This document shows positions 36,152 through 41,466 of a DNA stretch of 53,718 nt, piece by piece (positions within the stretch are counted from its first letter, which is position 1; every line of letters starts with the position of its first letter). Below the pieces are notes generated by a model, which saw only the letters and a program-made list of their open reading frames with translations, was not told the origin of the DNA and made no database searches. The DNA lies in the NCBI GenBank assembly GCA_003133685.1, contig PKYQ01000009.1, positions 75,638 through 129,355 of the forward strand, written 5' to 3'. A program made the translations under genes and the position numbers. This DNA comes from Acidimicrobiaceae bacterium (GTDB lineage: Bacteria; Actinomycetota; Acidimicrobiia; Acidimicrobiales; RAAP-2).

Positions 36152-39240
<3,089 letters not shown>

Positions 39241-39268: not shown

Positions 39269-41170
39269 ATGCCACCACCCACCTTCGCCAACGGACACCT
39301 TTTGGTCAACCGCTACCGGATCCAGGAGCTCTTGGGTATTGGCGACACGGCCGAGGTCTACCTGGCCGACGACCAGTCGCTCCAGCGTTCGGTCGTGGTA
39401 AAGGTGTTGTTACCTCGACTGGCCGGCCACGAGGACGTCCGTCGCGCCTTTCGCGAGCGAATCATCAAGGCCGCCACCCTGAGCCACTCGCACCTCGCGC
39501 GCGTCTTTGACGGCGGTCAAGAGTCCGGTTCGATCTTCATGATCTGTGAGTACCTCAGTGGAGGATCGCTCGAGGACGTGCTCTCGAGCGGACGCAGGCT
39601 GAGCGTCGATGACGGTGCTCGACTCGGTCGCGACGTGGGCAGTGCGTTGGCCTACGTGCACGAGAACGGCATGGTGCACGGCGTGCTCTCCCCGTCGAAG
39701 TTATTGCTCGACGAAGAAGGTCGCATCCGTGTGAGTGACATCGCGTTGGCCGGAATCGGCACCGAGTACCGCGAACGCGTGACGCTCGACGACGTGCGCT
39801 TCCTCAGTCCCGAGCAGGCGATCGGCGACCCGGCCAATCCTCGCAGCGACGTCTACGCCTTGGCCCTCATCCTTTATGAGGCGGTGACCGGCATAACGCC
39901 TTTCGACGGCGTGACGCCGGAGGCCGTGTTGCGTGCGCGCATCAACGCGACGCTGCCCATGCGACCGGAACTCGGCACGCTTGACATGATCCTCGCGCAA
40001 GCGGCGGTCTCGGATCCGCGGCAACGTCTGGACGCCGAACAGTTCGCGAGTCGACTCGGCGCGGTCGTGAGCGACTTCGCCCCGCTCGTGATACCTCCCG
40101 TCGGGGGAGAAGTGCCGCTGCTCAGCCAATACCGGCCGTCGGAGCCAAGAAACTCGGTTGGCTTTCGGCCCCCGTCGCCCGATCAGATCACCGGCGCGAC
40201 CGCAGCTGTCTCGTCGATTGGTCGCACCGGTGCGCCGCGTCACGCCCGTCCGGCCGATGAGTGGGTCACGACGAGCTCGCCCGTCGGTCGAAGTCGAAGC
40301 GTCCGCGGCGACTTCGACGACCAGGACTACGCGCGGCTTGCGCCGTCTCGTCGACTGGTGTTTCTCGTGGCCGCAGTGGTCCTGCTCGTCGTGGCGATCG
40401 GTGGCGGAATCGCCTGGAAGGTCGGGCTGTTCAGCCAGGACAACTCGGTGCCGAACTTCGTCGGCGTGAATCTGGGCGAGTACCAGAACGCCAGCTTCAC
40501 CAGCAACGCGGGAATCGTGAGCCTTCGATCGACCGTGAAAACGGACGGGTTCGTCCTCCACATCAAGCACGCGTTCTCTACGAGCGCCAAGGGTGGCACA
40601 ATCATCTCTCAGTCACCGGCGTACAACACCGAAGCCACGAGCGGCCAAGCGATCACGGTGACCGTCTCCGACGGCGTCCAGACGGTGCGAATCCCCGCCT
40701 CGCTCATCGGCGAGACGTGCGCCGTGGCCGGACCGAAGCTCGTGCACCTGCACCTCGCCGTGCGCTGCCCGGCGAATCGGTTGATCTCGAGCGCGACCGT
40801 TCCGATCGATCGGATCGCGCGAATCGTCAACACCGCTGGTAAATCGATCACGACTGCGGCCGTACATTCGACCGTGATTCTGGAACGAAGTTCCGGCCCC
40901 GCGACGTCGACGACCACGACCACCGTGGCGACGTCGGGTACGACGACCACGACGGTCGCGGTCCAGAGCTTGGTCGCGGTGCCGAACGTCGTCGGAATGA
41001 ACGAGGCGCAAACGCTCGCCGCGATGACGGCGGCTGATCTCTATTACTCGACGACCGGTCCCGGCGCCTCGCCGACGACTCCCACCTGGACGAAGGTCGT
41101 CTCGGAGAACCCCGCCGCCGGCACGATGGTGAAGAAGCTTTCCCATGTAATTTTGACCGTCACCAAATGA
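39269..41170 (+). CDS. PASTA-domain transmembrane pseudokinase
   Basis: A 633-residue PknB-like protein. The kinase-like domain covers residues 12-265, one membrane helix 363-383, and the outside carries about three PASTA repeats (393-540 and 575-633) with a Thr-rich linker. The ATP side is partly kept: GIGDTAEV loop, K45, E63, D157. The catalytic loop is not. HRDxKxxN reads HGVLSPSK (H137, G138, V139, S141, K144), so the catalytic Asp, the following Lys and the Asn are all lost, and DFG reads DIA. It is therefore predicted to be a pseudokinase. It may sense muropeptides through PASTA and signal by binding partners. It follows ligA and overlaps the CxxC gene. Confidence 0.88.
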   Translation: MPPPTFANGHLLVNRYRIQELLGIGDTAEVYLADDQSLQRSVVVKVLLPRLAGHEDVRRAFRERIIKAATLSHSHLARVFDGGQESGSIFMICEYLSGGSLEDVLSSGRRLSVDDGARLGRDVGSALAYVHENGMVHGVLSPSKLLLDEEGRIRVSDIALAGIGTEYRERVTLDDVRFLSPEQAIGDPANPRSDVYALALILYEAVTGITPFDGVTPEAVLRARINATLPMRPELGTLDMILAQAAVSDPRQRLDAEQFASRLGAVVSDFAPLVIPPVGGEVPLLSQYRPSEPRNSVGFRPPSPDQITGATAAVSSIGRTGAPRHARPADEWVTTSSPVGRSRSVRGDFDDQDYARLAPSRRLVFLVAAVVLLVVAIGGGIAWKVGLFSQDNSVPNFVGVNLGEYQNASFTSNAGIVSLRSTVKTDGFVLHIKHAFSTSAKGGTIISQSPAYNTEATSGQAITVTVSDGVQTVRIPASLIGETCAVAGPKLVHLHLAVRCPANRLISSATVPIDRIARIVNTAGKSITTAAVHSTVILERSSGPATSTTTTTVATSGTTTTTVAVQSLVAVPNVVGMNEAQTLAAMTAADLYYSTTGPGASPTTPTWTKVVSENPAAGTMVKKLSHVILTVTK

Positions 41171-41466
41171 GCGCCGGGTGTGACCTGTGCGAAGCGGCGG
41201 TCATCACCACCCGGTATTTCGAGGACGACGACTGCTGGATCGCCGATTGCGAGATCTGCCTCGTGCCCATGGTCGTGTGGACCACGCATGACGACGTACC
41301 GCCCGAAGACGTAAAAGTCCGTCTGCGCACCGCGTTGAGCGCCGTCGCCGACAAAGAATTCGGCGACGGGAACTGGTCCTACGACGACCACATGCGTAAC
41401 ATCCCCGACCACTATCACGCGCACGCCCGGCCGCCGTACTTCTGGCGCCGGGGCCAGACCCGGTAG
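41167..41466 (+). CDS. Small double-CxxC protein, unknown function
   Basis: A 99-residue protein. Two CxxC pairs (CDLC at 5-8 and CEIC at 28-31), linked by a short aromatic stretch, suggest a zinc ribbon or a redox site. They are followed by VPMVVWTTHDDVPPEDV and a His-rich tail (DHYHAHARP). I do not recognise a named family. The ATG overlaps the pseudokinase stop (ATGA), so it is translated with it and could be a functional partner. A 52-base gap with a Shine-Dalgarno follows before the SDR gene. Confidence 0.72.
   Translation: MSAGCDLCEAAVITTRYFEDDDCWIADCEICLVPMVVWTTHDDVPPEDVKVRLRTALSAVADKEFGDGNWSYDDHMRNIPDHYHAHARPPYFWRRGQTR

Follow-up and report, generated by a model that had tools for sequence, protein, structure and literature searches.

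A ligA-linked PASTA receptor of an Acidimicrobiales genus as a predicted pseudokinase under strong purifying selection

The locus and its parts

The window, i.e., the whole stretch of DNA analysed (53,718 nucleotides from an Acidimicrobiaceae genome), contains on its forward strand an open reading frame of 633 codons for amino acids, which is treated here as the gene of a PASTA receptor pseudokinase. The protein has the architecture of the PASTA receptors, in which a kinase domain is combined with a transmembrane segment (read from the sequence) and extracellular PASTA repeats, as indicated by Pfam and by the modelled fold. The Pfam matches are Pkinase (2.2e-27) and PASTA (1.9e-15, in two stretches), in line with the original prediction that the PASTA repeats were retained. 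The features of the locus are the following.

39269..41170, + strand: PASTA receptor, predicted pseudokinase, 633 aa (ORF, translation, Pfam)
39314..40054, + strand: kinase-like domain, residues 16-262 (Pfam, AlphaFold, structure matches)
39311..39313, + strand: Arg15, equivalent to PknB Arg10, presumed N-lobe dimer interface (structural alignment, model 15 to PknB 10; conservation count)
39380..39382, + strand: Leu38, equivalent to PknB Leu33, presumed N-lobe dimer interface (PknB alignment, structure, conservation count)
39401..39403, + strand: beta-3 Lys45 (genus census, 76/87 readable)
39458..39460, + strand: Arg64 at the helix-C Glu column (alignments to kinases, census)
39509..39511, + strand: Asp81, equivalent to PknB Asp76, presumed N-lobe dimer interface (PknB alignment, structure, conservation count)
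39677..39700, + strand: degenerate catalytic loop HGVLSPSK, residues 137-144 (translation, alignments, census)
39737..39745, + strand: DIA at the DFG position, residues 157-159 (translation, PknB alignment, census)
39737..39817, + strand: short activation segment, residues 157-183, without the WTEP Thr loop and the GTARY P+1 loop (comparison with active orthologues)
40142..40195, + strand: conserved juxtamembrane motif EPRNSVGFRPPSPDQITG, residues 292-309 (motif counts)
40355..40417, + strand: transmembrane helix, residues ~363-383 (read from sequence)
40436..41167, + strand: extracellular part, three PASTA-like repeats and a Thr-rich linker (Pfam, alignment, model)
37210..39240, + strand: ligA, upstream neighbour (Pfam, synteny)
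41167..41466, + strand: 99-aa CxxC protein, ATGA overlap with the receptor gene (ORF, synteny)

The receptor gene begins 28 bases after the end of ligA and overlaps that of the CxxC protein by the four bases ATGA, an overlap that had been noted before. The CxxC protein contains CxxC pairs and is rich in His at its C-terminal end, and it gave no match in Pfam (E 0.001) or NCBIfam (E 1), nor did tblastn detect it in those ligA loci of other families that were retrieved. It had been suggested as a possible partner of the receptor, for which the evidence is its adjacent position, conserved within the family.

The AlphaFold model of the ectodomain (pLDDT 80.1, pTM 0.44) has three alpha-beta repeats, of which the middle one is a divergent PASTA-like fold with a Cys pair invariant over 32 aligned sequences, and the Thr-rich linker stands ahead of the last repeat. 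The kinase-like domain was modelled with a pLDDT of 90.7 and a pTM of 0.90, and the closest solved folds are those of Mycobacterium tuberculosis PknA (4ow8, Z 32.2) and PknB (2fum_B, Z 30.4, 1.9 A over 250 residues).

A kinase-like domain without the catalytic machinery

For the active site, M. tuberculosis PknB and the two intact kinases that the genome also encodes served as references in the alignments. These alignments agree with the original prediction that HRDxKPxN is represented by HGVLSPSK (residues 137-144), that DFG is represented by DIA (157-159), in which the Asp itself is retained, and that K45 is the Lys of the VAIK motif. The proposed helix-C Glu63, on the other hand, was one residue off and is rejected as the conserved Glu by the same alignments: the Glu column, which lies in FRREA in PknB, holds Arg64 (helix C spans residues 55-69 in the AlphaFold model), and therefore the Lys-Glu pair of the active kinases is missing. 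The glycine loop, GIGDTAEV, had been described as kept, which is partly but not fully the case. The activation segment is shorter than that of the active orthologues, given that the stretch AWTEP...GTARY, including the P+1 GT, is gone. Of the catalytic set formed by the beta-3 Lys, helix-C Glu, HRD Asp, HRD+2 Lys, Asn and DFG, only K45 and the DFG Asp survive, and the domain, read in its own right, is very probably that of a pseudokinase.

Loss of the catalytic motifs across the genus

The whole query was matched in 61/61 relatives and its kinase part in 171/172 family genomes, paralogues included, with no internal stops among the matches listed in either search. The window's genus is uncultured, with many members from peat soils; its named records are MAGs, mostly titled Acidimicrobiaceae or Actinomycetes, and the titles of 20 of them mention palsa, bog or fen. 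Two orthologues, 73% (L084) and 67% (L098) identical, belong to records titled Candidatus Saccharibacteria and Acidobacteriota; these titles look mislabelled because of that degree of identity.

Rows were obtained from 90 of the 99 genomes of the window's genus, 87 of them fully readable at the active site, and not one of these 87 has an intact site; a further member, G151, is also non-intact. The loss of the catalytic motifs is thus common to the orthologues of the genus, as expected of a pseudokinase. The HRD Arg (138) and the catalytic-loop Asn (144) are lost in 89/89, with Lys at the latter position in 72, while the HRD+2 Lys is lost in 88/89 and retained in one. The helix-C Glu is lost in 81/88, and the few cases in which it (7/88) or the DFG Gly (9/89) is retained are early-branching members; the core of the genus has lost the helix-C Glu as well as the P+1 GT. 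The DFG Asp is retained in 86/89 and the beta-3 Lys in 76/87, so that, together with the HRD Asp in 10/89, nucleotide binding may have been kept. A complete loss of the HRD Asp across the genus is rejected by those ten members.

Weak residual kinase activity could be proposed from the ten members that keep the HRD Asp, yet it is highly improbable: none of the ten has Lys141 and none has Asn144, and the core of the genus has neither the helix-C Glu nor the P+1 GT. Another reading is that the nucleotide serves a reaction other than phosphorylation, in the manner of SelO, which AMPylates, or that Lys144 stands in the place of the metal. It may draw on the frequent retention of K45 and D157, and on the observation that Lys144 is always accompanied by Asp157 (70/70 fully readable genus rows), a pairing that reflects few independent events and is known from sequence only. 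Table 1 of PMC12599244 also gives HGV for SelO. Against such a chemistry stand the loss of the Mg-binding Asn in 89/89 and the rarity of Val at the HRD Asp, which is found in 1/89, Ala, Ser and Glu being commoner, and we regard it as very unlikely.

Outside the genus, the rest of the family gave rows from 61/73 genomes in 20 other genera, 53 of which are intact; the eight exceptions are five genomes of g30 and one each of g29, g32 and g28. In the other families of the order, where a ligA-linked row was found in 21/24 genomes, 20 of the 21 are intact, the exception being G042 (HTELTPSK). The original prediction had held that orthologues with intact HRD and DFG would imply a local sequence error. 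Such orthologues do exist in the other genera; a sequence error is nevertheless not implied, since the site is non-intact in all 87 fully readable members of the genus. Sequencing or assembly error is rejected on this count and by the absence of stops among the matches listed.

Among the exceptions, all five sampled genomes of g30 (L132, L234-L237) have VAVR, HGA for HRD, and DFS, DFH or DFR for DFG; g30 is thus the second genus whose PASTA receptor is degenerate. The single genome of g29 (L131, G081) has HGDLKPSN and retains the Lys, Glu, Asn and DFG, with an altered activation loop; judged by these residues, its protein may be an active non-RD kinase and may represent a non-RD intermediate. 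One genome, G080 of g28, has Gln at the beta-3 Lys. In L132, L165 and L054, taken as representatives of the other non-intact cases, Pfam finds three PASTA stretches each.

Origin from an active ligA-linked PASTA kinase

In the loci that were fetched, the best match usually adjoins ligA, and the gene order tRNA thiouridylase, ligA, pseudokinase or kinase gene, CxxC gene and SDR recurs in the family where the contigs reach. In other families ligA lies at most ~3.2 kb from the kinase gene. An intact PASTA kinase lies near ligA in many families of the order (loci L034-L060, L128-L165), and this ligA-linked kinase is a second PASTA kinase, separate from the FHA-linked PknB.

Trees were built for the kinase and for LigA after the trait columns had been taken out. 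The window's genus forms one group in both (SH-aLRT 90 in the kinase tree, 100 in the LigA tree), and each tree needs four changes between the active and the pseudokinase states, the protein of g29 being scored as a pseudokinase for the kinase tree and as active for the LigA tree, with four changes either way. Three is the cautious figure, because the LigA tree does not fix the branching among g1, g29/g30, g31/g32 and g44; there seem to have been at least three independent conversions, four being the most likely number. The ancestor is an active ligA-linked PASTA kinase, which was then converted to a pseudokinase: in the genus the catalytic loop, the helix-C Glu, the activation loop and the DFG Phe and Gly were replaced, and the fold, the transmembrane helix and the PASTA repeats were retained.

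Selection on the pseudokinase domain

Values of dN/dS were computed by the Nei-Gojobori method only for pairs in which the window is one member, dS being near saturation in the more distant pairs. With the four nearest relatives the domain has a dN/dS of 0.039-0.048 (dS 0.47-0.72), about half that of LigA (0.075-0.087), and each of the eight pairs computed gave a lower value for the domain than for LigA. The same four comparisons gave 0.076-0.095 for the thiouridylase, 0.074-0.135 for the CxxC protein and 0.020-0.048 for the SDR, and 0.188-0.218 for the receptor outside its kinase-like domain.

Overall conservation is equal in the core pseudokinases (74 sequences) and the active orthologues (70), with mean majority frequencies of 0.765 and 0.758, respectively. 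A set of 29 positions is conserved among the pseudokinases and rare among the active orthologues, and helix C has been heavily remodelled (positions 54, 57, 58, 60, 63, 64 and 65). The dN/dS values and these 29 positions show that the domain serves a function other than ordinary catalysis.

The degenerate motifs might also be expected of a decaying pseudogene or an assembly error, a reading to which we give a negligible probability in view of the frames, which are open among the matches listed, the dN/dS of ~0.04 and the 0/87 intact sites; the last two rule out gene decay. The non-phosphorylating PASTA sensor that had been proposed at the outset is, as far as sequence can tell, strongly supported by the genus-wide loss, the intact ancestor and the strong purifying selection.

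Dimer interface and candidate partners

Arg10, Leu33 and Asp76 of PknB are residues of its N-lobe dimer interface, and PDB entries for the PknB mutants L33D, L33E and D76A are found among the structural matches. Their equivalents are conserved in the genus (R15 in 87/87, L38 in 85/88 and D81 in 88/88), and also in the active orthologues (70/70), for which reason their retention is not specific to a heterodimer. Beside Asp81, the genus has changed Trp82 to Gly (80/88) and Glu84 to Gln (80/89), and these changes could represent an altered interface. In PknB-type kinases the N-lobe dimers are described as a means of allosteric activation in PMC3601408, and the back-to-back dimer is likewise described in PMC6333020.

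In the genome itself, whose completeness is about 95%, Pkinase was matched three times, by the pseudokinase, an intact 520-aa kinase without a PASTA match, and an intact PknB; the presence of another full kinase, which had been suggested earlier, is thereby borne out twice. The pknB gene adjoins two FHA proteins, with a PP2C and a PBP also there (read from the sequence), and these two are among the three FHA matches of the genome. Further PASTA-bearing frames occur at G000:C9:96489-96668 and G000:C7:24808-25200 (278 and 372 aa), outside the kinase matches.

The main rival explanation starts from this neighbourhood: PknB would phosphorylate the juxtamembrane tail or the activation segment of the receptor, an FHA protein would dock there, and the receptor would site the complex at wall growth in a manner similar to that of MviN. 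The motif R-x-S-[IV]-G-F, Ser included, is present in 70/79 core genus sequences, and the three FHA matches, two of them beside pknB, offer possible docking partners. FHA domains, however, favour phospho-Thr, and the juxtamembrane motif has no constant Thr. In addition, 19/58 genomes from the rest of the family have a GFRxPSxxELT-like form, and in 13 of these 19 the active site is intact; the motif is rejected as a gain linked to the loss of catalysis given this related form in members with intact sites. Although MviN provides a precedent (PMC12599244, section 8), we consider such a phospho-scaffold rather unlikely.

A receptor that acts as a decoy, binding the same muropeptides and damping PknB by pairing with it, would be expected to have the same architecture and the same dimer residues, as is observed, and its inactivity would make it a damping partner. 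The sequence, however, does not separate damping from activation, and we judge the decoy improbable.

Proposed mechanism

The animal receptor HER3 (ErbB3) combines a ligand-binding ectodomain, a transmembrane helix and an impaired kinase, and it signals through an active partner. We propose a similar arrangement here, to which, taken as a whole, we give about an even chance: the PASTA repeats would retain their affinity for lipid II or fragments of peptidoglycan, the catalytically dead domain would join the cell's own PknB, an intact PASTA kinase, in a back-to-back pair through the retained N-lobe interface, and it would modulate PknB allosterically, broadly as HER3 acts on the active kinases that it pairs with. 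We infer the ligand, the pairing and the direction of the effect. Since catalysis has been lost under selection that is nonetheless strong, the signalling probably proceeds via a working kinase rather than by phosphorylation of its own, and the model in which the receptor pairs with PknB is preferred given the lost machinery, the ancestry, the selection, the interface residues and the intact candidate partner.

A broader version, which is possible though doubtful, would see a bacterial HER3 in the repeated conversion of PASTA kinases (in the window's genus, g30, one g32 member and G042), with catalytic and non-catalytic receptors forming heterodimers for wall sensing and, in the window's genus, with Lys144 and the DFG Asp in the place of the metal.

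Comparison with known systems

The protein resembles the PASTA receptor kinases PknB, PrkC and Stk1 in its architecture, its fold and its retained N-lobe dimer residues, and the NCBIfam model NF033483 matches it over almost its full length (1.3e-72). It differs from them in its score, of 245.6 bits against a cut-off of 450, and in being without the catalytic loop, the helix-C Glu, the DFG Phe and Gly, and the P+1 loop.

PMC12599244 covers seven bacterial pseudokinase families, and in its text PASTA occurs once, in the title of a reference. One of these families, the pseudokinase domain of MviN (ActPs3), is part of an actinobacterial membrane protein with a role in wall synthesis and forms a back-to-back dimer; the window's protein shares the first of these traits, probably the tie to wall synthesis and, in the proposed model, the dimer. 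The motifs given there for ActPs3, VALT, Lsidhpsr and Y--, are VVVK, HGVLSPSK and DIA in the window's protein, and membership in MviN/ActPs3 is rejected by this comparison, made by motif only. MviN was absent among the best 50 Foldseek and the best 50 VIA-align matches, which has no bearing on kinship. The window's protein descends, unlike MviN, from the ligA-linked PASTA kinase. MviN is not known to have PASTA repeats.

ActPs2 is characterised in PMC12599244 by Arg for the beta-3 Lys, Asn for the HRD Asp and a long activation-loop insertion, whereas the window's protein keeps K45, has Val at the HRD Asp and has a shorter activation loop. ActPs1, as described there, has all three catalytic residues substituted, often with the G-helix missing and a PQQ domain present; the window's protein, compared by motif and domain only, keeps K45 and the DFG Asp, and its Pfam matches include no PQQ. 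With ActPs1, ActPs2, GLW, CP1, DYD, DLHK and EssB/YukC it has in common the kinase fold and the loss of the catalytic motifs, while no PASTA ectodomain is mentioned for these in PMC12599244.

The likeness to HER3 is one of receptor logic only, between unrelated receptors. A PASTA receptor pseudokinase was not found in the open-licence literature, judged by titles and the openings of abstracts, and as far as this literature shows it is a new variant among the known pseudokinases.

The PASTA kinases couple wall synthesis with cell division, and dimerisation of the kinase domain is considered to be what drives them; the role of this dimer beyond trans-phosphorylation is hard to tell apart from catalysis. 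A strongly selected PASTA receptor without catalysis, in a genome with few kinases of which one is an intact PknB, would allow the two to be distinguished, and the intact orthologues of the sister genera are ready comparisons. Finally, the repeated conversions suggest that the active forms of the receptor, too, perform a non-catalytic job.
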